Assembly (NCBI GenBank): GCA_949152475.1
Contig: OX424561.1
Span: forward strand, 1,922,001-1,986,000
Length of the DNA: 64,000 bases
Direction of reading: 5' to 3'
From: Terebella lapidaria
Taxonomy: Eukaryota; Annelida; Polychaeta; Terebellida; Terebellidae
Shown: positions 17,159 to 55,376 of the stretch, piece after piece
Numbering within the stretch: the stretch's first letter is position 1
How the letters are laid out: every line of letters starts with the position of its first letter
Notes under the pieces: model-generated
What the model was told of the DNA's origin: nothing
The model's database searches: none
What the model saw: only the letters and a program-made list of their open reading frames with translations
Program-made: the position numbers and the translations under genes

Positions 17159-18838
17159 GCCGTGTCATGTGTCACTGCAGCCATGTCTGTGTCATGTGTC
17201 ACTTGCGGCATGTGTCATTGCAGCCGTGTCTGTGTCATGTGTCACTGCAGCCATGTCTGTGTCATGTGTCACTGCAGACGTGTGTCACAGTGTGTCATTA
17301 CTGTGCCCATGTCTGTGTCATGTGGCATGTGTCCACATGTCGTGAAAGTGTCGTGTCACTGCGACCGTGTCTGTGTCATGTGTCACTGGGCAGTGACTGT
17401 GTCATGTGTCACTGGGCCGTGTCATGTGTCACTGCAGCCGTGTCTGTGTCATTTGTCACTGGGCTGTGTCATGTGTCACTGCAGCCGTGTGTCATGTGTC
17501 ACTGCAGCCATGTCTGTGTCATGTGTCACTGCAGCCGTGTGTGTGTCGTGTGTCACTGCAGCCATGTCTGTGTCAAGTGTCACTGCTGCTGTGTCATGTG
17601 TCACTGCAGCCATGTATGTGTCACTGGGTCGTGTCACTGCAGCCATGTCTGTGTCGTGTGTCACTGCAGCCGTGTCTGTGCCATGTGTCACTGCAGCCAT
17701 GTCTGTGTCAAGTGTCACTGCTGCCGTGTCTGTGTCATGTGCAGCCATATATGTCACTGGGTCATCTGTGTCATGTGTCACTGGGCCGTGCCATGTGTCA
17801 TAGTGGCCGTGTATGTGTCATGTGTCATTGTGGCCGTGTATGTGTCATGTGTCACCGGGCAGTGTCATGTGTCACTGCAGCCATGTCTGCCATTTGTCAC
17901 TGCAGCCGTGTCTTTCATATGTCACTGCAGCCATGTCTGTGTCATTTGTCACTGCGGCCGTGTCTTCCATGTGTCACTGGGCCGTGTGTGTCATGTGTCA
18001 CTGCAGCCATGTATGTGTCATGTGTCACTGGGCAGTGTCTGTGTCATGTGTCACTGCGGCCATGTCTGTGTCATGTGTCACTGTGCTGTGTCATTGTTGC
18101 CGTGTATGTGTCATGTGTTACTGGGCAGTGGCATGTGTCACTGCAGCCATGTCTGTGTCATTTGTCACTGCGGCCGTGTATTCCATGTGTCACTGGGCCG
18201 TGTCTGTCATGTGTCACTGCAGCCCTGTCTGTCATGTGTCACTGGGCCGTGTCATGTGTCATTGTGGCCGTATATATGTCATGTGTCATTGTGGCCGTGT
18301 ATGTGTCATGTGTCATTGTGGCCTTGTATGTGCCATGTGTAACTGGGCTGTCATGTGTCACTGCAGCTGTGTATGTGTCATGTGTCACTGGGCCATGTCA
18401 TGTGTCATTGTGGCTGTGTTTGTGTCATGTGTCACTGGGCAGTGTCTGTGTCATTGTGGCTGTGTATGTGTCGTGTCACTGGACAGTGTCTGTGTCATGT
18501 GTCGCTGCAGCCATGTATGTGTCATGTGTCACTGGGCAGTGTCTGTGTCATGTGTCACTGCAGCCATGCATGTGTCATGTGTCACTGGGCAGTGTCTGTG
18601 TCATGTGTCATTGCAGCCGTGTTTGTGTCATGTGTCGCAGCAGCTGTGTATGTGTCATGTGTCACTGGGCAGTGTCTGTGTCATTGCAGCCATGTTTGTG
18701 TCATGTGTCACTGGACAGTGTCTGTCATGTGTTGCTGCAGCCGTGTATGTGTCATGTGTCACTGGGCTGTGTTTGTGTCATGTGTCACTTGGCCGTGTTT
18801 GTGTCATGTGTCACTGGGCAGTGTCTGTGTCATATATG
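17159..18838. repeat. Minisatellite, 27 bp unit, about 1.7 kb
   Basis: The array is built from variants of TGTGTCATGTGTCACTGCAG plus CCATGTC or CCGTGTC, 27 bases in all, with sub-variants in which CACTGCAGCC is replaced by CACTGGGC, CATTGTGGCC or similar. There are roughly 60 units. Because 27 is a multiple of three, stop-free frames of 391 and 495 codons run through the array, with a further one on the minus strand. These predicted peptides are only the unit translated (Cys/His/Val-rich, such as CVMCHCSHV). There are no splice signals and no non-repeat coding flank, so I regard them as by-products and not genes. The unit variants are interspersed, which implies repeated local expansion. Confidence 0.9.
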
Positions 18839-23679: not shown

Positions 23680-23692
23680 CACTACCCAGCGG

Positions 23693-24035
23693 GCACTATG
23701 ACGTTGGATCTACGTTGATACAACGTCGGTCCATGACATTGGATCAACGTTGGTTTTACATTGGATTTGGAAGTTGGATCAACGTCTGAAATCCAACGTT
23801 GGATCAACGTCTGAACGTCAACGTTGAATCAACGTCTGAAATTCAACATTGGATCAACGTCTGAAATTCAACGTTGGATCAACGTCTGAACATCAACGTC
23901 TAAATTTCAACGTTGGATGAACGTCTGAACGTCAACGTTGAATCAACGTCTGAAATTCAACATTGGATCAACGTCTGAAATTCATCGTTGGATCAACGTC
24001 TGAACGTCAACGTTCAGATCAATGCATTTAATCTA
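23693..24035. repeat. Left subterminal repeat array of the EnSpm element
   Basis: About a dozen imperfect units of roughly 22-26 bp are built on ATCAACGTCTGAAATTCAACG. The right end carries only a short counterpart (34487-34560). In plant CACTA elements such subterminal motifs bind the accessory protein TnpA. By analogy these are candidate binding sites for a protein of this element, but that is inference. Confidence 0.85.
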
Positions 24036-24144
24036 ACGCTGGGAAATGTATCTGTAAAGCAATATCTCCATTCTGTCGATCTGCCTGATCGAAGCATCAC
24101 TGGTACAAACAAAACAACAAACACCAAACTAATTCATGAACTCA

Positions 24145-27100
24145 TTATTTATTATTAATTTTTCTTCCACCTCCACCGCAGCGGTCAGGAGCGTACTTGA
24201 GATATCTGGACACGGCGTCACTAACGTCATTTTCAGTCCCTTCAAAGGTTTTCAGGGCACTTTCTGAAATAATAATAAAAAAAAATTAAATACAAATGTA
24301 TACAATACATAATATACATAATACATAATATATGTCACACTAATTCCTTTCCTAATAGCAAAACACCTATTTTTCATTGAGGAAAAAAAATAGGCCAAGG
24401 GGAGAAATTCCGCTAAAACATAAACATGATACAATGTTCAGGTACTTTCTGCCAAAATGCCATAATCTGTTGTGACATATTGACTGGAAGTGCAGTATAC
24501 CAGAATAACACACACCTTTTACAGCTTCATACACCCTCGTCCCCATGAAAGCAAACTTCCCCCTCTTTCCTTTCATATTGAGTGATGCCATGAGTTCATT
24601 GGTCATCAGACTGTAAGGAATATAACGAAAAGCTCATTTCTGCACAAAATCCATGCATCTGACAGGCATGTGGTACCTACTGTACCTAGATAATAATGTA
24701 CATAAAAGTTTGGTTTGTACTCCAATTTTCAAACATAATGATAATATCATAATATACCGGCTCAACATCTTGTTAACACTGTCTCGCAGCGAAACCCCGC
24801 CAATTTTAGCCAACCTCGACACCTGAAATACAAGTTGTGAAAGCAGTGTAGTAAAAGTTCAAGGTCACAATATTATTCCTACTGGGAAGAAATTTTACTG
24901 GGAATATCAGTTGCAGTTACCAGCAGCTGTCTTTGTCGCTCAGACTGCAAGGTGGCATTGAGCTGCATCAAGGAATCCACAGACTCCATCTGTTCAAGGT
25001 GGAACTGAGACTTGGGATCCTCAAACTCTTTACCGATACGCGCTTGCCCATCTCTTATTTGAGTTAGCAAGTACAGCACCCGTCGCTGAAATTCTGAATG
25101 AAACAAAACATGTGATTTGCAAGATTCACTAACACTGAACTTCTCTGCAGCCTCAGCTTTACACCATGAGTTTTTAATATTCAGAGTACTAAATGTGATA
25201 GGATCAGAATCAAACTTACTGGCTTCTGACATCGGGAAGGTATCCTGCTGTTGTGGCACTGGATATTTGGAAAAGGGAGTAGTATTTCACCGCTTGTCAA
25301 TATATTATATTTGTGACATATTCATTTCAAACAACATTCAGCGATATGAAAATGATGATATATAGTTGTGTTATCCAATGTGGTAGATTCCTGTATAAAA
25401 CGTGGAAGATCCAGACAATATGTGTAATATTTCATAAAGGAGAGCGAAAGCTTTACATGTGAACAAAGAAAAGATTCTTTGCTACAGTTCTCAACTTGCC
25501 ACTATTATTAAGAAACCTAAATGTACTAATTTGTACCTCCATTTCATTATAATGTTAGTGTCAACTCACTTGTGTCATGCGCTTTCTTTCTGGCAGCCTG
25601 ATCAGCCACAGTCTTTGAAGTATGTCCTGTAAACATACAATACAAATGTTGAAGTGCAATAACCGGTAGTTTTATATTGCATTCATGAAAACCCTCAAAT
25701 CCGATAAGCTCTGATGATGTAGCTGACTCACTTGTACCAGCAGCCGCTTGCAGTTGTGATGCACCCGGACTGGACTGGTCATCACGAGACTTGTTCAGTA
25801 TTCCTGACATTAATTGAAAAAAATCAGTTAAATCCATAAATAATAAGACCAAAAGCTAAATGTTGATTGATATTCTGACTAACTTGAACTGCCAGGTTTA
25901 TATCGAGATTGAACCCGTTCCTCTACCGTCAGTGAACAGTCTTCTGTCAAAGACAGAGAAGATAAATAAAATTGGTTCTGGCTCTCAGGGCAACTATCTG
26001 GATCTGTTACGAGATTGTGAGCAATTATAATAACTGCAACTCAGAACCGGTTTGTGTGAATGATTATGAGATAGAAATACAACCAAAATATTATCCCTAT
26101 CGCAATCACTGCATAGTCAATGAATAAACCCTGCATACACTTACCCACGGCCACATCACCAAGAAAAGATCCTGTCGGAACAATGGGTGATGAGGATCGA
26201 GATGATGATGATGGTGAATCATTCCAATCTGTGTGAAGATTAGCATAATTATATTACAAGAAACGTAACACTTGATGAGTCTTTATTTATTTATATGCAT
26301 AGGTAATAGTACAAAAAGAGCATATTTTACCCTCTTCTCCTGGTTTGTCAGGTGCACTTGCACTCTTTGGTGTGCTGGATCTCAACGGGGGCAGCATCCC
26401 TTTGCCTGCAAGAGGAACTGTTCGATTGAATAAATTTTATCTGAACAATTCGAAAAAAAATCAAAATAGCAGATCAATTCATGTTCAATTCATAATCACT
26501 CAATCATAAATAGGCGTATTTACTTGGAGTGTCCTGAGTAAGAGACTTGTCGCTCTCATCACCACTGCCATTCCCATCCCGGCCTGCCAAGCAAATACAA
26601 TTAATTACTGAAAGTAGTATCAGAAACCCATGGGTTTCTGCCTGTATGCTTTCCCTCCAATGACAGAGTGAAATTGTTCACATATCTAACCTGTTGTTAG
26701 ATCATCATAGCTTTGGTTCCTCGTTGTCCCTATGCCATTCTGGGCCGGTGTTTCACCTTGACTTTTGGCCTGCGGCTTCAGTGTTTTTGTTGGTGGCATT
26801 GGTAACAGCGCCCTGCCTGTAGATTGTAAGCATGGTAAGAGGTTCCGATTTCCAATCAATGAAAATAACTTATCCGTGTAAAGAAATTTAAAAAACCAGA
26901 TGCATACAGGAATCATTATATACAGGAAGCAGAACTGCAGGGAAATATTATACTTATTAAACCATGCCACTTAATGAGAAGGGAACTGCAGGGACATATT
27001 ATACTTATTAAACCATGCCACTTAATGAGAAGGGAACTGCAGGGACATATTATACTTATTAAACCATGCCACTTAATGAGAAGGGAACTGCAGGGACATA

Positions 27101-27822
27101 TTATACTTATTAAACCATGCCACTTAATGAGAAGGGTTACTTACTTGAAGTTTTTTTAGATTTAGACGTGTGGCTATTACTCTCGTCTTCGCTGTCAGTC
27201 GCACCCTGTCCTGCACCAAATGCAATGAAATACAACGCACAGGTTAATTCTTGCAGATATTTTTCAAGTATTACTTCTCCATTAACAGAAACAAACTTTC
27301 CTATATATCTAACCTGATGTAAAATCATCAAAGGTCCGTTTCTTCGGTTTTCTTTTGCCATTAGGTGGTCTTCGGCTCAGGTCGTTTTCAGCTTCTTGAC
27401 TAGAGTTTTGATCTTCCTCTGCTCCCGTTGTAAAGTCATATTCAACGCACTTCTCCTTCTTGTCTGTGGAAGTATATACGTGTATTATCCATGAAACTTG
27501 CATTATTCGATATTCAGAGCATGGGAGTAAATGACTAATCTAAAATGTATCATATGGAGCAACAATACATATTTTATAACATTTTCTGAAATTGTGAATC
27601 ACCAGAGTGGTAAGTGAATGACATTTGTATACCTGACACGTGTTTGATCTTCACAAGCTGGAAAGTGTACCAGCGCGACTTTGGTTGTGCCATCCTCCTC
27701 ATGGCGTCTGCCTCATTTTGGTTGGGCCAGCTCAGCGTGTATTTTGCTACGTTGATCCAACAGAGGGGCACAGTCCCTTCTTCCTCCATATTCCCTTCCA
27801 ACCACACAGCTCGGGCCCACAT
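24145..27822 (-). CDS. DUF4806-domain protein, 15-exon gene inside the EnSpm element
   Basis: Hand-spliced with GT-AG junctions throughout: 27822-27633, 27463-27314, 27210-27145, 26816-26691, 26583-26524, 26405-26331, 26228-26145, 25943-25884, 25803-25732, 25626-25570, 25258-25220, 25093-24921, 24822-24758, 24610-24516, 24263-24145. The total is 1431 nt, 476 residues plus TAA, with no stop. The N-terminus (MWARAVWLEG..., about residues 1-63, with CWIN and LSWPN) looks like the short N-terminal module common in DUF4806 proteins. The middle (about 64-313) is Ser/Pro/Asp/Lys-rich and probably disordered. The C-terminal 165 residues match DUF4806 as I know it: FQRRVLYLLTQIR, then LAKIGGVSLRDSVNKML, MTNELMASLNMKGKRGKFAF, and RYLKYAPDRCGGGG at the end. 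An acceptor-like CAG lies just before the first ATG, so a 5' untranslated exon is possible. It sits 0.3 kb downstream of the transposase on the same strand. Function of the domain is unknown. A TnpA-like accessory role in binding transposon ends is my inference; a captured host gene is the alternative. Confidence 0.85.
26621..26640. repeat. Perfect 20 bp palindrome CAGAAACCCATGGGTTTCTG
   Basis: A self-complementary 20-mer in the intron between exons 4 and 5 of the DUF4806 gene (minus strand). It shares the CAGAAACCCAT core with the hairpin at 12-45 and with half copies elsewhere in the window. Confidence 0.8.
26933..27136. repeat. 51 bp tandem repeat in an intron of the DUF4806 gene
   Basis: Four copies start with AACTGCAGG at 26933, 26984, 27035 and 27086 and are almost identical. 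The array fills most of the intron between exons 3 and 4 and ends about 7 bp from the exon 3 donor. It leaves the splice site intact. Confidence 0.9.
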
Positions 27823-28103
27823 GACTGGAGACAAAACAAATGATTTTGAGTTCAGGGTACAATGTATTAAACAGTTCACCAATGATGGGATAGAGTGGGA
27901 TCCATTATGCATGCTGTTTGGCAGGGTACAAACACATGTATATCTACACCAGCTAATATTGTACTAGCAAATTGACATTTATGCAACATGACTATTCTTG
28001 TTAGTACATTTAATGCTCAAACCCATGCGCCGGAATACAATCATTAAAGAAAACTATATGATAATACGAACTGATCTGTACCTCAAAAGAGCATCTGTTA
28101 AAA

Positions 28104-30104
28104 TCAATATTCCCTTTCGTGCAAAAGTGGTGTAATCACTAAGCCTTCCTCAAAAGGGATGCACGCAGCTTTCCGAGACAGTTCACGGACATTGATCAAC
28201 TTGCGGCGACCTCGTTCTCTTTGTACATCATTTGTTAAGTACATAATGTTGATTACTTTCGACTCGCAAGGCTTGTTGAAGAAGTTTACAGCATGTCTGG
28301 TGTGCACGCATTCACAAATGACTTCTCCATTCGTTCTTTTTTCTTTGACAAAAGCTATATGATCTGTGTGCATAATGAAGCAGCTGTCTTTCTGCTTGCT
28401 CGTCACGAAGGCGTGGGTACGATGAGTTTGCAGCGTCTTTGCAGAATTTTCAAATTCAGCCATGCGTTTGACTGCTTGAACGATTGGATTTGATCCATTC
28501 CGAACCATTTTCTTCAATTTCTGCAGGTAGTTCTCGAATGGGAAAGCAGATACATCATTCAATGAACACTGGAAGAACTGAACATCTTCATGCAAATGGA
28601 TCAGTCCGTGTACATTATACACACAGAATGTATCACCATATACATCTTTGGACTTTCTCACAAAATACACTAGGAGTTCTCGAGCATAGTCCAGTAATGC
28701 AACCCTCTTCTCCATAGTCGATTGTAACATGATCGAGACTGCGACAGATAGGCAAAGAAAATGTTCATATACGTCTGCCGAAACCACACCACGTAGTACA
28801 ATAGGTCCAGTATACAGAAGAAATTGTCTGAATTCTGTGGCTTTCCACCGGTCGATTTCCTTTATCGGTCGTGGTTGTCTGGCGAACTCGCTGGGCATAC
28901 ATCCATTCAGATTTTGCAACTTTTTTGAAATTTCTTCCTTTTGGCGAACAGACAGACGGCAATAATTCGGCCCTCTAATAAGAAAACTGAACATTCGCCT
29001 GACAACACCCAAACAAACGAGATGCATGTAATCTAAGGCAAATTGTTGCACACAGCTCACGCCAGCAGGAACAAGTGGAGAGAGGGAAATCTGGTGGTCC
29101 TTGTAATGAAGAGAATCAAAAAGTTCCCGTGTGCGGAGATCACAGTCTTCTTCAGAATTGAATACAACGCGACCATTCCATCCTCCTTTGATGATGCACC
29201 TTTCACAAGAGAAATATGCGTTGTGACTTTTAATACACTTCAATAAAGCTCTTGCTGGCGCGTCGCAGATGAAAGCTTGAACTTCCACTCGATAGCAAAT
29301 GCCTGCATATGACAATTCCTTCAGATTTCCCATTTCTTCGATCAAATCTGAAAGATAGCTTTCTACTGGATGTGGCTTACTTGTCCCACAAAAAAGAGCG
29401 ACGACAAATGGTACCAAGTTTCCGAGCTGGCACAAAATGGGCCAAAATTCTGTAGTGCTTGACTTGAATAGTGGACACCCGTCAGCATTAATTTTCAGTT
29501 TCAACACGTTGTCTTCTGGTTGATACCTGTGATGTGCCAAATCTTTCAAAACGCCTGACTCGATTCCAAAATATATGTACTTTCCTCCACATTTGTTGGA
29601 TGGGGATACTCTTTTTGGTGTGTGCAGAAGGGTGCGAGCATCCTTCGGAACACGATGACCATTTCTGCGGAAAATCTCCAGAATTTGGTTCACTGAAGTC
29701 CGAGTACACGCATTCTTTGTTGCCCATTCAGCCAAGTCTGCAACAAGTGTCTGCTCTGGGTCTTGAACATCCTCACCATTATCTTCCAGATTTATCTCTG
29801 ATTCAGAGTCGGAAGACGAGTCATTTTGATCATCAGCGGAGGAGATATACTCAAAGTCGGACTCCGAATTACTATCATAGTCTGAACTTAATGGGGAACG
29901 CTGAACAGAATCACATACTGCCTCGCTGTGTGTGATGTTTGTGGTGGACTTATTTGAGTCACTATATCCATGTTCCGAATAGCTGTCACTAGCATTTTCC
30001 TGTTCAGAGAAACCTGCCAAGCTGCCACTATCACTGTCATGTTCCGCCAAGGCTGTGACATCAGCATGGTACTTTCTCCACTGTTTCCGATACATTGTCT
30101 TCAT
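28104..30104 (-). CDS. Tnp2-type (Transposase_21) EnSpm/CACTA transposase
   Basis: Uninterrupted frame of 666 codons from the ATG at 30104. The frame is open a further 8 codons upstream, but has no ATG there and then meets a TGA. Another ATG lies 3 codons inside, and a spliced upstream exon is not excluded. Residues about 1-130 are acidic and Ser-rich. The catalytic region follows the CACTA pattern: D208 in NADGCPLFKSST, D281 in FICDAPARALLK followed by H294 and C300/C303 (FSCERC), H361 in DYMHLVCLGV, and E524 in SAFPFENYLQKLKK. This is a DDE-type enzyme that would cut at the element's CACTA ends in the nucleus. All the landmark residues are present, and the length is within the usual range for animal members. 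It is transcribed toward the DUF4806 gene. Likely active or recently active. Confidence 0.9.
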   Translation of the reverse strand: MKTMYRKQWRKYHADVTALAEHDSDSGSLAGFSEQENASDSYSEHGYSDSNKSTTNITHSEAVCDSVQRSPLSSDYDSNSESDFEYISSADDQNDSSSDSESEINLEDNGEDVQDPEQTLVADLAEWATKNACTRTSVNQILEIFRRNGHRVPKDARTLLHTPKRVSPSNKCGGKYIYFGIESGVLKDLAHHRYQPEDNVLKLKINADGCPLFKSSTTEFWPILCQLGNLVPFVVALFCGTSKPHPVESYLSDLIEEMGNLKELSYAGICYRVEVQAFICDAPARALLKCIKSHNAYFSCERCIIKGGWNGRVVFNSEEDCDLRTRELFDSLHYKDHQISLSPLVPAGVSCVQQFALDYMHLVCLGVVRRMFSFLIRGPNYCRLSVRQKEEISKKLQNLNGCMPSEFARQPRPIKEIDRWKATEFRQFLLYTGPIVLRGVVSADVYEHFLCLSVAVSIMLQSTMEKRVALLDYARELLVYFVRKSKDVYGDTFCVYNVHGLIHLHEDVQFFQCSLNDVSAFPFENYLQKLKKMVRNGSNPIVQAVKRMAEFENSAKTLQTHRTHAFVTSKQKDSCFIMHTDHIAFVKEKRTNGEVICECVHTRHAVNFFNKPCESKVINIMYLTNDVQRERGRRKLINVRELSRKAACIPFEEGLVITPLLHEREY

Positions 30105-30289
30105 ATGACTTTTGAACTTGAACCACAAAAATCTTCACACATCTGCACATAGTATACTGATCTGCAACAAGAAACAAAATCAAGGTCTGTGCATGCATTT
30201 ATCATTGGTGGATACCAGTCTGTCAGCTGCTGTACTACACGAGCGAATAGTATCAGTAGCATGCACTAAATATCGTGGACAACTGTATA

Positions 30290-30582
30290 CCGTATTGGCC
30301 CTAAGAGTGGCACGTGTCCTAATAGTAGAGCACCCCCTTCTTTTTCCAAAAAAAAAAATGTTCAATGTTTGTAAGCTTGTAACACTGTATATCTTTCCAA
30401 TGAAATCTCGGAGTGCTCTAATTCACACAATCATGTTTTTTTAATCATAATAAAGGAGATCGTAGGGTATAAATATTAATATTCAGTGATTTTCTTAAAC
30501 CTCAAGTTTGACCTCATTTTTGCGCGCGCTGCTGCAGGAGGTCTTGCGTGGGCACGCCATGCTACTATTAGGACCAATATGG
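30290..30582. mobile_element. TA-flanked MITE, 293 bp, nested in the EnSpm element
   Basis: The left end CCGTATTGGCCCTAA is mirrored by TTAGGACCAATATGG on the right. Both are bordered by TA, as expected for a Tc1/mariner-like or similar TA-target element. It inserted about 190 bp upstream of the transposase start codon, where a promoter would be expected. It has no coding capacity. Confidence 0.65.
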
Positions 30583-31288
30583 TACATGTAAGTATGCATT
30601 TTCGAACACCGACAAAATCTTTTCTTTTGAAAATGAGAATGAGTGAAAATACATGTAATATACCAATTTGAGAACGCCAAATGCACTCAATACTGTTGTA
30701 GTAAACTAAGCTAAAATAAAATCAGCACAGTTTTTTTTTAGTTATGGGTTGTAATAATCGAATTCCGACCCAGTAGGAACAATATTGCATTAAATGTTTA
30801 CTTTCCTTATTGCTTCGAGTGCAGTGTTTTAATTGTGGAAAGTTTCAAGTCAACACCAGGTCAGCACGGGCTTATTCTGCACGTTGATTATCAACACATT
30901 GTGGCATCTAACTGTAGGTTAGTGGCCCTGCCATACAAAAATGCATTATATACACGTAGCTAAGTTATTCATATCAACGATCCCTTGAATGTTTGTAACT
31001 TAACTAAAAGTTTCTTTGTGAAAGTTTTTAAAAAATTTATATTAATTTAAAAAATATTTAGCCAATAAATAATATGGAGGGATATATCTGTTGATTTATC
31101 AATTTCTTACCGGTACATGTATCTGTCATAGATGATCTCAACAATAAATAATGTCCATGAAATAACATCAATCTTTTTATAAACCGCAATTATAGTCACT
31201 GTTCTCCTTTGTCATTCATACATGTATCTCCAGTAACTGTAATCAATTTCTGTTGTGTTTGCTCTCCTGGACTAGAGGTAATGATCCA

Positions 31289-31335
31289 CCCCCCCCCCCC
31301 CCACACACACACACACATACACACACACACACACT
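31289..31335. repeat. C run followed by (CA)n microsatellite
   Basis: About sixteen C residues run directly into about sixteen CA dinucleotides with one TA variant. The end of this microsatellite belongs to the target site duplicated by the neighbouring insertion. Confidence 0.9.
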
Positions 31336-31357
31336 CTGTACTGTCTGCATTGGGGCA

Positions 31358-31732
31358 TATTGTTGGATTGATACTCTAGGCACTTTCGAACCTCATGGCC
31401 TCAACGTTCAAAAATTTACAAAGTATGACCCTTTGAACAAAAGTAAAAATAAATTCGACATGGTGTATATAGTACCCTTCTCAAAAACAGGTACTCTTTC
31501 AGCCCAAATTGTTAAAAAGCATATGAAACAACTCAACAAAAATACTGATGGTGATATTAAAATAGCAACAGCTTACAAGAAGCATCAAAATCTTAAAGAA
31601 CTTTTAGTCAGAAGCAAACTTAAATAATCCAACAAAATTTGTTCAATGTCGCTCATTGAATTTTTATTGCTGTTTTATGTTATGTGTTACTCTTACAATT
31701 ATCTTGTGCCAGTGCATTTTTTACTCTCCAAA
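31358..31732 (+). mobile_element. 5'-truncated retroelement tail with 35 bp target duplication
   Basis: The 35 bp sequence at 31323-31357 (CA repeats, then CTCTGTACTGTCTGCATTGG and GGCA) is repeated exactly at 31733-31767, bracketing 375 bp of foreign DNA. The insert opens directly into a frame of 89 codons that ends at 31627 with IATAYKKHQNLKELLVRSKL. This pattern (basic, Tyr, then a KNLK-LLVR-KL run) is familiar from the far C-terminal end of reverse transcriptases of Penelope-like elements and their relatives. About 105 bp of 3' sequence follows. A long target duplication plus 5' truncation is typical of target-primed reverse transcription. The family call is tentative. Confidence 0.6.
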
Positions 31733-31767
31733 ACACACACACACTCTGTACTGTCTGCATTGGGGCA

Positions 31768-34480
31768 GGTGGTAAAATATTCAAGTGGCTTTTTACCCGG
31801 TATCTAATCGATCACGTACAATGATTGTTGTTTGCCTTTCCAATTATCTTGATTGTTTCCTTGAATGCATAATCCAGTATTTCTCCTTTTGTGCCATACA
31901 TGTATGACCGCAACCCGTTAGACAAGGATCAACATGTATAGCTACCTCCCACCGCAGCTTAATGGGACATTAGGATTTTATGGTCTGGCATGTTTGTGCC
32001 AAACTCGGGGAGGATAATCAGCGTAGCATCTGCAGTCAGGGGGCAATTTGTCAGTGTCTGGATCCTGCCGGACCCGCAGGGCTTGTGGCTATTTATTTAA
32101 AAAGACGTTAACTGTCTTCTCGGCCAGATCCAAACCCATTTCCTTGCCTCTGTGTGTCGCGATTCTGTCTTTTTACGTATTGATCTTCTTATAGCTCTAT
32201 ATTACAGTCGGGATTTTTACGTATGGGGAAACCCTTATCCAACCTTCATCCAGTGACCGGGAGACCGAGGGCTGGAGTAAATCCACGGGGCTGGAGCCAG
32301 CTGGCCCCGGGCCCTTGCATGTTGGGTGTTCTGTTCTGATCCCGACCTGGAGTGGGGGTAGGCGGTAGGGGGGCATTCGGTCAGGGAGTTGATTGGAAGT
32401 CGGCTGAGTATTAACACACAATTTTTCATTGAGTGATGTATATTGAATCCACAACAAGTTGACCTCACAAACATTATGTAACATTACGAATTAGTAATTT
32501 TACAAGGTGGTATCGTTAAACGGGTGGGGGATGATGCTTGGAGAAACTGATTATCGTAAATCCAAACATACAAATATGGGCTACAAGGGATTTAATCCTG
32601 AAAGCAAATAGTATATGGTGTATGTGTATGCAAGTAACAAAATTCATGAATGTTTAAATTATCAAGAAGGAAAAAGCCAAGGAAAAAATCTAAACAAGAA
32701 GGGAAAGAGGGTGGGAAATTTGAAAAGATGCTTCCACAGGCCTTGAGTAAAACAGATTTACCAGGTTTGAAATATTTTCGCATAGGAGTGTTAGGGTATG
32801 GGTCATTAATGTCAGGATCTAATTAAATAATTGAAAGCAATGACCTGCCCAGGGAACGACCCTCAAGAGGCTCTAACAGCCAAGCTTCCCAAAGAAGCCG
32901 GATTCCCCAGAACCACCCCTGGTGTATGTATTGGCCCCCACTTCACCTTGTGAAGTAGAAAGAAACTGGAGCTGGGCCCTGGGGGAATAACCCTGCACAG
33001 AGTGAATGTACCTTGTTTGATCCCTAGCACCGGGAATTGGATAAGTTTGTTGAATGAATGGCTGGGTTAATTTCAACTGTTCTCACTATAGAAACCCCCC
33101 AGGGCGCTAACTGCCACAAATGATAGTGATGGAGGTTTCTAAAAATCCTTCAAAATGCATATTTTTATTCTATCAAAAGCAGAAATGTATACATGTTCGT
33201 AACTGTCTTTCTACCCTCAATGTAGAATAATGAAACACGATATCATACAATATTATTTTTCCAGTATTCTAACGGTATTTACTCATAGGAGATAATAATC
33301 CTATATCAAAAGGATTTTATATGATATTCTGTTCATTCACTGTTGTAGCAATCCATATATTCGTAGGTAAATTCCTTGCGAATACCAAAATCATACGAAT
33401 CTACAAAAAGTGAATCACATGTACATTTACCAATAGCCTAGCTACATGTACATGTATGGGTCAATCAGTCAAATACCGGCAAAATGTGTTCACACTCTTT
33501 CTAGTATTTACCCGTGAATGCACACAAGTGGGCCTAAAACAAACTTTCATGATTGGAATCAACAGTAATGCATGCAGTAATAAAATCACTTCATAATCCT
33601 AATAAAATCATAATAGGCACCACACTCTGGCTTGCAAACTGTTACTTTTATGAGATCCTCCTAGGATATACTTTCCAGCAATTTAAAATAAACCTTTGAA
33701 TAATCCTATGCTAATATATATAAATAACTTACCTCAACTGAGAAGAAGTGTGGTCACGGCAATTCCAATAGTGTGGTCAAGGTAATTCAAATATCGCGTA
33801 ATCCACTATTCACTGTTTGAAAGCAAGTTCTAACACCGTCTGATCGTGGGAGGTCAAATCTGTGAACTGATGGGGTCACTGCATGGTTCCCTCGCAGGGC
33901 CGCTCGAGAAAGGGACGCGAGTGGGCTGGCTCACGTGACTGATTGGGCGGGAAATCTGGTATCCAGTGAGGGCAGAGTTAGGGAGTAGTGGGGGGGGGGG
34001 GACAAATGTATAAATACAGTATCAACAGTGCCAGCTCAACGGTTTCTCCTATACCTTGTCTGAAGGTAATTACTGCCAAAGTTTGATGAGCTACATGTGG
34101 GTGTTGAAATGTATGAGCGTATTGTGGGAAGAATGGGAGGCTCACAGACATAATTTTGGCAATTGGTATAGCAATTAATAGGCCTAATCACCGCGGGGTA
34201 CCTGCAGGCCAGCACAAATATATACATGATATAACATCGAATATTCTTATTCATTATTAGGTTATTATTATTTATCAATCAATCAATCATTGATGAAAAT
34301 CAAACGAATGAACTATATATATCAACTTAGGTGAGACTTTCATTGTTACGTTAGACAAACGCTCCTCTGTTGTGCAACTGAGCAAATAGGCATTCAATAA
34401 TCCCATAACGCTTTTCAAGAGTTACGTTGTATACGTCAACTATAAAACAACGAGGTGGAGTCCTATAGTGTGTCGGCATT
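31768..34480. other. Non-coding right half of the EnSpm element
   Basis: 2.7 kb between the nested retroelement tail and the right subterminal repeats. No transposon gene is visible, and the frames of 60-95 codons lack domains. It includes a G run at about 33991-34002. It could hold the transposase promoter and 5' exons, or unrelated insertions I cannot delimit. Confidence 0.5.
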
Positions 34481-34486
34481 CACCGT

Positions 34487-34560
34487 TGTTCCAACGTTGA
34501 TACAACGTTGCCGACGTCACGACATAATTTGACGTATTTTCAACGTTGATCCAACGTCGG
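34487..34560. repeat. Right subterminal repeats of the EnSpm element
   Basis: CCAACGTTGATACAACGTTG and CAACGTTGATCCAACGTCGG occur back to back with a GACGTATTTT spacer. They mirror the units of the left array but are far fewer. Confidence 0.8.
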
Positions 34561-34577
34561 GTGCCGGCTGGGTAGTG

Positions 34578-53039: not shown

Positions 53040-53836
53040 CGAGGTTATTGAAGGTCGAATTCAAAATCACCACTGAAATCTCTTTATATGAATTTCCATT
53101 CGACATGTTTGATAAAATAACGAAAATACAGATAGATCAATCTTTTCACCTATTTATATTTCAACTCAGAATATTTTACAAACTTGGTTCCAAGTTGAAA
53201 TTCAAAGTAAAATTTGACCAAAAATGCATTTCAAGATGACGAAATTGGAGCTAGATTGAACTTCTCACCATAAGTTATATTTCGATTCATAATACATGTA
53301 TGTGCCAAACATGGTTTCAAGTTGAAATTCAAAGTAAAAGTTAATCAAAACTGCATTTCAAGATGACAAAATTGGAGCCAGATCAAACTTTTCGTCATGA
53401 GTTATATTTTAACTCATAATACCTGCCCAACTTGATTTCCAGTTGAAATTCAAACTAAAAGTTGACCAAAACTGCATTTCAAGATGACGAAATTGGACCC
53501 AGATCAAACTTTTTGCCTTGAGTTATATTTCAACTCATAATATGTGCCAAACTTGGTATTAAGTTGAAATTCAATGTAAAAGTTGACCAAAACTGCATTT
53601 CAAGATGACGAAATTGGAGCCAGATAGAACTTTTCGTCATAAGTTATATTTCAACTTATAATATGTGCCAAACATGCTTTCAAGTTGAAATTCAAAGTAA
53701 AAGTTGACCAAAACTGCATTTCAAGATGACGAAATTGGAGCCAGATCGAATTTTTCACCATATAAAGTTATATTTTAACTCATAATTTGTGCCAAACATG
53801 GTTTCAAGTTGAAATTCAAAGTAAAAGTTGATCAAT
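53040..53836. repeat. Satellite-like array A, about 123 bp unit
   Basis: About six units plus a degenerate first one. Each contains GTTATATTTCAACTCATAAT, then TGTGCCAAAC, CAAGTTGAAATTCAAAGTAA and CAAGATGACGAAATTGGAGC. Unit starts (GTTATATTT) fall near 53274, 53400, 53521, 53642 and 53766. Units differ by a few to ten per cent by eye, so the array is of moderate age. Confidence 0.88.
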
Positions 53837-53845
53837 GTTTTCATA

Positions 53846-54700
53846 AAAAGCTATTGTGATCAATAATAGACTTAACTAGCAAAAAAATAATGTTAACTTA
53901 TTTGGTCACAAACATAAAATCTCTACTGGACAAAGCCTTCACCTTGTTGAGCCCAATAATAAATATTTCTTGTCTTAACTATTTTCATTGTGGTCAATAA
54001 TAGACTTAACATGTAAAAATAAAGTTAACTTATTCGGTTACACCCAGAAATTTCTACCGGACAAAACCTTAACCTTGTTGAGCTCAATAATAATTGTTTC
54101 TCATCTTAACTATTTTTATTGAGGTCGATAATAGACTTAACTAGCAAAAAAAATGGTAACTTATTTGGTTACAGACATAAAATGTCTACTGGACAGAATC
54201 TTTACCTTGTTGAGCCCAATAATAAATATTTCCTGTCTTAACTATTTCGTAAAAATAATGTTAACTTATTCAGTACACCCATGAAATCTGTACTGGACAT
54301 ACTTTCACCTTGTTGAGCTTAATAGTAAATATTTCTCATCTTAACTATTTTTATTGTGGTCAATAATAGACTTAACTATTTTTATTGTGGTCAATAATAG
54401 ACTTAACTAGTGAAAGTAATGTTAACTTATTCGGTTACACCAATGAAATTTGTACTGGACAGAACATTTACCTTGTTGAGGTTAATAATAAATATTTCTT
54501 GTCTTAACTATTTTTATTGTGGTCAATAATAGACTTAACTATTAAAAATAATGTTAACTTATTCAGTTACACCCATGAAATTTGTACTGGACAAAACCTT
54601 TACCTTGTTGAGCTTAATAATAAACGTTTCTCGTCTTAACTATTTTTATTGTGGACAATAATAGACTTAACTAATAAAACTAATGTTAACTTATTCAGTA
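53846..54700. repeat. Satellite-like array B, about 130 bp unit
   Basis: Six to seven units of GTGGTCAATAATAGACTTAA followed by TTAACTTATTCGGTTACACC, TTTGTACTGGACAAAACC, TTACCTTGTTGAGCTTAATA and CTTAACTATTTTTATT. One unit is internally short (about 54247-54354), and a 31 bp piece is doubled at 54355-54416. The array directly follows array A but shares no unit with it. Confidence 0.88.
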
Positions 54701-54960
54701 ATATTGTCCTGTTTTCACTGAAAACTTCAGTTCTCCATTCTGAACAAGAAACCAGTGTCATTACCTTCCACTGTACAGGCTATTGGAATGATCGTACATG
54801 TCAAAATGGATATTTCAAAATTCTGTAATAAGTTAGGCTGTTAACATATTAATATTTATATGATCATTCTAAAAAACGATTGGTTTCGTGTGACAGCCCT
54901 TCCCAACAACACTTCCAAATATTATCGAGATTCGTCAAAAATTGCCATCTGTAGAGCGTT

Positions 54961-55296
54961 CACAAGCCATGTGTCTCAAACAGGCTGTTTTCAATGCAAA
55001 ATGTGTCCCCAAACGACCAATTCAGTTGCCACGGCAACCAAAATCGATTGGTGTCGAGATCTTACCATGATATATGTGCCTGCAAAAAATAATGGTGATC
55101 GGGTGAGAATTGCGGCCTGTAGCGCGTTCACAAGCCATGTGTCTCAAACAGGCTGTTTTCAATGCAAAATGTGTCCCCAAACGACCAATTCAGTTGCCAC
55201 GGCAACCAAAATCGATTGGTGTCGGGATCTTACCATTATATATGTGCCTGCAAAAAATAATGGTGATCGGGTGAGAATTGCGGCCTGTAGCGCGTT
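54961..55296. repeat. Near-identical 168 bp tandem duplication
   Basis: CACAAGCCATGTGTCTCAAA begins at 54961 and again at 55129. The copies are nearly identical by eye, so the duplication is recent. A third start (CACAAG) at 55297 immediately diverges. Each copy includes GTTGCCACGGCAAC, an X-box-like palindrome. Since 168 is a multiple of three, a 162-codon frame spans it. I judge that frame non-coding because it holds no known domain and simply translates the duplicated unit. Confidence 0.88.
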
Positions 55297-55376
55297 CACA
55301 AGAAAATCTCTGCGGACACGGACGCGGACGACGAAGCCAAATCCATAGTATCCGCCGAACTTTGTTCGGGGGATAC
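55297..55376. repeat. Tail of a dispersed repeat ending in a hairpin
   Basis: A GGACACGGACGCGGACGACG block is followed by TATCCGCCGAAC-TTT-GTTCGGGGGATA (about 55350-55376), a 12 bp stem with one mismatch and a three base loop. GGACG-rich blocks followed by such hairpins are familiar to me from abundant invertebrate repeats. I believe the duplicated 168 bp unit upstream belongs to the same element, but its ends are not defined here. Confidence 0.45.

Follow-up and report, generated by a model that had tools for sequence, protein, structure and literature searches.

A two-gene transposon of Terebella lapidaria encodes a predicted RAG1/Transib-like transposase and a DUF4806 protein, a candidate TnpA-like cofactor

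The window analysed here is a stretch of 64,000 nucleotides from the annelid Terebella lapidaria (assembly GCA_949152475.1, contig OX424561.1, positions 1,922,001 to 1,986,000; C7:1922001-1986000 in our contig numbering), taken from a genome of 761.6 Mb in 438 contigs. It contains a transposon of 10,888 bp with two genes on the minus strand, one for a transposase and one for a protein with a DUF4806 domain. An initial annotation had described this locus as an EnSpm/CACTA element with CACTA ends, in which the DUF4806 protein was proposed to be the second factor of the element and the counterpart of the plant accessory protein TnpA. The following features were located (window coordinates; a strand is given where one applies):

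23685..34572, no strand: whole transposon, 10,888 bp, ends CCCAGC...GCTGGG, delimited by the start of homology among independent copies
23683..23684, no strand: left copy of the target-site duplication TA; the CAC before it is host DNA
34573..34574, no strand: right copy of the target-site duplication TA
23685..23696, plus strand: left terminal inverted repeat, CCCAGCGGGCAC
34561..34572, minus strand: right terminal inverted repeat, CCCAGCCGGCAC
23700..24022, no strand: subterminal array at the left end, made of ACGT-centred repeats (GACGTT/AACGTT, ATCAACGT) at a density of up to 21 ACGT per 300 bp
34340..34560, no strand: subterminal repeats of the right end, with 9 ACGT over the final 500 bp
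28104..30104, minus strand: transposase coding sequence, single exon, stop included, first Met at 30104
27825..27826, minus strand: splice acceptor AG, two bases before the second-gene ATG (p 0.022 versus random places)
24145..27822, minus strand: second gene, 14 exons, 538 aa, all 13 introns GT-AG, stop-free
about 27633..27822, minus strand: second-gene exon 1 with the N-terminal domain (predicted, mean predicted local distance difference test score, pLDDT, 95)
24516..25258, minus strand: second-gene exons 11-13 with the coil and the DUF4806 match (residues 425-490)

The boundary of the element was taken from independent copies. A 471-bp probe of the left end matched 16 other places in the genome (41 match rows, two of the places being 3 kb apart). 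The copies L044, L045 and L046, which share 98% mutual identity, start at CCCAGCAGGCAC, and the bases preceding this point are unrelated except for common target dinucleotides. The terminal inverted repeats start with CCC and have the consensus CCCAGC(A/C/G)GGCAC. A search of the genome with the end pattern returned 34 matches, versus 1 for a control pattern, and these included ten facing end pairs, 2.1 to 10.8 kb apart. Exact 2-bp duplications flanked six of the eight elements examined (TA in the window, then AT, TA, AT, AG and TA); the flanks of a seventh agreed in one base only, and none was seen by eye in the eighth, L040, whose right end is decayed. The 3-bp duplication canonical for CACTA/EnSpm elements was rejected, as no match to it was found in the flanks of any of seven elements. 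The inverted copies of CACTACCCAGC that had suggested CACTA-type ends are indeed present, at 23680 and 34577, but their CACTA is flanking target DNA. Since the copies start with CCCAGC and are bordered by 2-bp duplications, the CACTA and TAGTG of the window together represent one target CACTAGTG, split in two with its TA doubled. CACTA, which lies outside the element, was therefore rejected as its terminus, and with it the EnSpm/CACTA label.

Animal TRC elements, described in 2006 from Schistosoma (SmTRC1), Aedes (an element of 9.2 kb) and Tribolium, have CCC ends and 2-bp duplications (PMC1636069); their terminal inverted repeats start with CCC (Aedes CCCAGTCAAC), and the duplications were found in 7 of 14 SmTRC1 copies. 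The Hydra element Spongebob (EnSpm-4N1_HM), with the terminal inverted repeat CCCAGCCAACATTGAC and 2-bp duplications, was also assigned to the TRC elements, but the passage concerned describes no second gene for it (PMC4298943). Because its CCC ends and 2-bp duplications match those of the animal TRC elements, the window element is classed on its sequence as a cut-and-paste transposon with two genes that belongs to the animal TRC branch within the CACTA superfamily rather than to the canonical CACTA/EnSpm elements.

The transposase frame was uninterrupted over 676 aa on the minus strand, as initially annotated. Eleven family members, with 31–58% identity to the window transposase, keep the acidic residues and the C(2)C and H(3)H motifs. 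D208, D281, C300xxC303 and H499xxxH503 were invariant in the 12-row alignment and E524 nearly so (positions of the first row), and by this pattern D208, D281 and E524 were assigned as putative catalytic residues. These acidic residues and motifs are common to the CACTA-Mirage-Chapaev-Transib (CMCT) clade (2025 paper, PMC12730594), and the arrangement typical of that clade, DDE with C(2)C and H(3-4)H between the second D and the last E, was found in the window protein. CMCT termini are CA..TG 'in most cases' (PMC12730594); the present termini, CCCAG..CTGGG, conform neither to 5'-CA..TG-3' nor to the canonical CACTA/EnSpm terminus (CACTA / CAC..GTG).

Against Pfam, the sole match of the window transposase was DUF4218 (E 0.04). 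Over the 12 family members, DUF4218 was matched in 11 (best 1.8e-5), Plavaka in two and Transposase_21 (PF02992) in two (best 3.9e-4), the window's own transposase not being among the latter. The initial label of a Tnp2-type transposase thus finds a weak echo in the profiles, through the DUF4218 match of the window protein and the Transposase_21 matches of its relatives. The predicted fold (mean pLDDT 73) gave 17 structure matches at E≤0.001, all 17 of them to RAG1 or HzTransib, and on this model the protein is a RAG1/Transib-like DDE transposase. Relatives of the transposase were also sought in a viral contig set and a genome contig set, where 17 and 16 pattern matches were obtained, none of them confirmed.

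The second gene had been annotated as a spliceable gene of 476 residues. It is fully spliceable, lies on the transposase strand and has DUF4806 at its end, but the modelled product is 538 aa long and is encoded by 14 exons. From the N-terminus, the protein comprises a small beta domain, a Ser/Pro-rich middle, a coil (assigned by eye), the DUF4806 domain and a basic C-terminus. A structure search with the predicted N-terminal beta domain yielded no solved relative at E≤0.001. DUF4806 (PF16064, IPR032071) is a domain whose role is not known; the window protein reaches its curated cut-off, with 25.3 bits against 25 (E 1.9e-5). A search of the whole genome with the PF16064 family found nothing, probably because the domain is divided over three exons. 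The DUF4806 part and the basic C-terminus were conserved in five families. One intron of the second gene contains four near-perfect 51-bp tandem copies (window 26932-27136).

The association of the two genes was counted across the genome. A transposase search gave 70 match rows, merged into 58 places, and the second gene was searched with the window second protein and two chimeric queries from other families. A place was taken as paired when a second-gene exon lay on the transposase strand within 10 kb 3'. The first count took 71 of 77 window-protein rows (the six omitted had E above 1.9) and, from one chimeric query, 39 rows out of 72 (the other 33 were further exons at the same places), and 31 of the 58 transposase places were paired. 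After a recount with the second chimeric query added and one or more rows taken per place, 34 of 58 were paired (31 without the window-protein rows weaker than E 1e-3). Where the transposase match was at least 1,400 bp long, a second-gene exon followed 3' on the same strand at 30 of 35 places (28 at E≤1e-3). The number of chance coincidences expected over all transposase places was about 0.03.

Two parts of the second protein were also searched for with profiles. Thirty loci were read with 1.5-kb flanks, and in 28 of them a profile of the N-terminal domain, built from ten families, matched at E<1e-3 just downstream of the transposase and on its strand; none of the 30 had the domain upstream or on the opposite strand at E<1. 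The two misses were L007, which has the domain 2.3 kb on, past the flank, and L027, the broken copy. Three loci outside the profile, L005, L011 and L016, scored 3e-17, 3e-13 and 7e-4. Applied to loci that had been left out of it, a DUF4806-region profile scored 1e-15 (L068), 2e-13 (L067) and 2e-8 (L070), and it found nothing at E≤20 in the 53 kb of the window outside the element. In L064-L066 the N-terminal domain lies in a long first exon, and DUF-like exons were seen by eye (profile E 1.6 at best).

All nine copies of the L018 family, which are 99.4–100% identical in protein and spread over 7 contigs, carry second-gene exons at near-constant spacing, as do all five copies of the L012 family. 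CCCAGC ends enclose both genes in the window element and in another three complete elements (C2:18432478-18443217, C5:18498526-18508018 and C8:18875383-18885758, the last with its transposase matched in part only), and short derivatives retain the element ends together with the last second-gene exon. DUF4806 genes thus recur between the same ends as the transposase, and the pairing and the enclosure between ends support the initial proposal of the DUF4806 protein as a second factor belonging to the element. Neither of the observations that had been named as contradicting that proposal was made in this genome: copies with the same ends and transposase did not consistently lack the DUF4806 gene, and this gene was not met at a syntenic place devoid of transposon ends, though many second-gene fragments do lie with no transposase nearby.

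The two genes have also diverged together. Over 12 families, transposase distances and N-terminal domain distances were correlated with a Mantel r of 0.87 (0 of 20,000 permutations); for four of the 12 N-terminal domains, the pieces on either side of an intron had been put together by eye. When the window was compared with L058, the relative nearest to it, both sampled parts of the second gene gave a nonsynonymous difference of 0.29 and the transposase one of 0.27; synonymous sites were saturated (0.76–0.91). A blastn comparison of these two second genes gave no match in exons or introns and is thus uninformative about introns. Chance adjacency of the transposase and the second gene was rejected on the coincidences expected (~0.03), the profile matches (28 of 30 loci) and the Mantel correlation. 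The two-gene architecture is real, repeated and old, and the two genes are associated and mobile as a unit.

In nine of 11 families, an AG acceptor was found 0 to 18 nt before the second-gene ATG; the exceptions were L060, with the acceptor 46 nt away, and L061, with the best-scoring site 38 nt away, though a CAG abuts the ATG. Seven of the 11 acceptors were better than random places at p<0.1 (combined p 4e-7). Acceptors before the transposase ATG had a combined p of 0.002 over 12 families, three of which were below 0.05; in the combined p-values, 1/6000 was entered where p was 0.000. Because acceptors precede both start codons, the spacing is short and the gene order is fixed, we infer that both proteins come from one transcription unit, whose leader exon would be spliced to either open reading frame (ORF). 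SmTRC1 offers a precedent: it makes short spliced messages without the transposase, most of its messages skip the transposase, and one holds the second ORF after that of the transposase (PMC1636069).

The subterminal repeat arrays that had been reported initially were confirmed, with 17 copies of ATCAACGT in the window against 2.0 expected, 11 of them at 23712-23999 and two at the right end. No 300-bp stretch of the window outside the element contained more than 5 ACGT. In the sequence beyond the second gene, the richest 300 bp held 21 in the window, 20 in L068, 12 each in L067, L059 and L060, 10 each in L058 and L062, 8 each in L061 and L065, and 7 in L064. Ten of 14 loci therefore had arrays above the background maximum, which corresponds to nine of 12 families, since L059, L060 and L063 are about 98% alike. 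AACGTT or GACGTT prevailed among the sites of the window, L058, L059/L060, L065, L067 and L068; TACGTA prevailed in L062, and L061 and L064 had a mixture. Such palindromic sites would fit a dimeric binder. Maize En/Spm also has subterminal repeat arrays. Two ACGT-poor families contained other palindromes, with 9 GGCC per 300 bp in L070 (3333-6001) and 7 CCGG per 300 bp in L066 (1-1700), and the palindrome may have switched there as if an operator had changed along with its protein. L067 (3837-4728) and L068 (2431-3499) have in common a 134-bp tandem repeat that contains AGGTCAAAGGTCA-like motifs; it is located beyond the ACGT array in L067 and between second-gene exons in L068.

From these sequence features we consider it fairly probable that the DUF4806 protein is a TnpA-like cofactor which binds the subterminal repeats and is made from the transposase's own transcription unit. 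TnpA itself is not known as a DUF4806 protein. Binding of the second protein to the subterminal repeats is plausible; DUF4806 has been called a BEN DNA-binding subtype, with reference to Pan et al. 2023 (PMC11075544). The protein would dimerise through its coil, and its DUF4806 (BEN-type) domain would bind the arrayed ACGT-centred sites beside the ends. It could then bring the ends together or load the transposase, and would control the promoter at the ends. A common leader would be spliced either to the transposase or, with the transposase left out, to the acceptor before the second ATG, as in maize Spm. Maize En/Spm makes a transposase (TnpD) and an accessory protein (TnpA) by alternative splicing of one unit (PMC1636069), but its ends are CACTA and those of the present element CCCAGC.

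Several points weigh against this assignment. All of the evidence for pairing and co-divergence comes from one genome. The PF16064 score of the window protein is marginal, the DUF exons of L068 and L070 alone reached 16.3 and 18.8 bits, under the cut-off, and single DUF exons of L059, L061, L062 and L067 gave no PF16064 match. Among the 35 places with long transposase matches, five had no detected second gene (C6:28801458, the broken copy, and C8:4361970, C9:6534084, C15:6734281 and C2:26814929, which were scored by search matches only), and one of the 30 paired places, on C12, owes its pairing to a match of E 0.96. Four of the 11 acceptors before the second ATG were no better than random places (p 0.18–0.41). 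An ACGT array was not seen in four of 14 loci (L063, which is cut before its end, with a maximum of 5, L070 with 4, L069 with 3 and L066 with 1), and two of the positive loci, L059 and L060, are 98% alike and so not independent. The subterminal position of the arrays was established for the window group only, the true ends of L061-L070 being unmapped. Lastly, 58 of 92 second-gene places had no transposase within 10 kb (37 of 68 in a stricter count that kept window-protein matches only at E≤1e-3). In the first count, 14 of 36 such places lay within 6 kb of an element end sequence (35 end matches were used), and they look like deletion derivatives because the element's own ends are so near; the others are untraced.

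Of the alternatives to a TnpA-like cofactor, the one that survives best, though we regard it as unlikely, is that the second protein serves the element mainly as a chromatin or transcription factor, to counter silencing or regulate the element itself, and that strand transfer can proceed without it. Its putative binding sites could serve a promoter at the ends, and non-catalytic genes thought to counter silencing do occur in DNA transposons, such as TET/JBP in fungi (PMC12730594). Those fungal elements also carry a CMCT transposase and a second gene inside their ends, but TET/JBP is an enzyme cargo passed between transposon lineages, whereas the present gene encodes a co-diverging putative end-binding protein. 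Its presence in most long-match relatives and its tight co-divergence with the transposase look more like those of a core component than of an optional one. The two readings also overlap, as maize TnpA regulates its own promoter too (PMC1636069).

It is improbable that the second protein joins the transposase as a partner without binding DNA, for instance through the N-terminal beta domain, while the transposase itself binds the ACGT arrays. The N-terminal domain is the most widely found part of the protein, its structure prediction is of high confidence and it lacks a solved relative at E≤0.001, but the DUF4806 part and the basic C-terminus are conserved too in the five families. Least credible by far is a host DUF4806 gene that lies beside the transposon by accident or was captured once, which the many transposase-less places would favour, but some of these adjoin element ends, the association recurs in 12 diverged families, and the pairing and co-divergence refute it for this genome as far as these elements go.

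The reading of the DUF4806 protein as a TnpA-like cofactor bears on a gap left by the 2006 description of the TRC elements. The TnpA-like candidate of that work, SmTRC-PrA, had no detectable relatives elsewhere, its place was left open, and its authors asked for a test (PMC1636069); here, in contrast, the second protein is of the DUF4806 type and common to 12 families. It is thus a conserved candidate for the TnpA part in animal TRC elements, and the probable binding sites adjoin it, so that a direct test is possible. The open-frame two-component elements could be used to try an animal CACTA-type system in a cell line. If the reading is true, a domain of unknown function would have a role, and the many DUF4806 copies in some animal genomes could be explained. 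Gene-family tables list DUF4806 69 and 54 times in two Hydra species, against between 0 and 6 times in another five cnidarians (PMC7642931), and DUF4806 genes were counted on zebrafish chromosome 4 (PMC11075544); the passages with these counts give no link to a transposase. A link between DUF4806 and transposons was not found in the passages covered by our searches of the open-licence PMC literature, though an annotation in Repbase is possible. In the same literature, BEN domain with EnSpm gave nothing, and the match for BEN with CACTA had BEN words in its references only. With confidence a little short of even, the proposal may be widened: DUF4806 would be transposon-born, the whole animal TRC branch would have a DUF4806/BEN TnpA, co-evolved lineage-specific palindromic arrays (mostly ACGT-centred) and one-unit splicing, and many of the DUF4806 genes found scattered in Hydra, zebrafish and insects would be such cofactors or their tamed descendants.

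Further second-gene matches were dispersed over the genome. Seven weak matches to one DUF4806 exon had an identical score (E 0.52, 30 residues) and no transposase was found nearby (C7:19880533, C4:41860332, C4:44668245, C7:32074360, C11:14685121, C16:23921350 and C13:18134287); they are perhaps a further element family. Many second-gene exon matches of the L064 or L061 type (E 1e-6 to 1e-9) also had no transposase match nearby, for example at C13:23834987, C13:23842314, C13:23865928, C6:7519576, C7:17019144, C16:17457857, C13:5899035 and C13:5909024. These orphan exons may be derivatives, unread families or host genes.

Inside the transposon, a stretch of 375 bp (31358-31732) lies between 35-bp perfect direct duplications (31323-31767 in all) and was probably inserted later. 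Its 3' frame (PFSKTGTLSAQIVKKHMKQ...NLKELLVRSK) resembles the end of a retroelement frame, and Pfam gave no match. Pfam matches were absent from all six further window frames searched. The window further contains a 1.6-kb minisatellite at 17209-18833 (27-bp units, 63 copies, 71% matches), which is open in several frames, and arrays of 121-bp and about 132-bp units with a 168-bp tandem pair, 98% identical, at 53154-54696 and 54949-55302.

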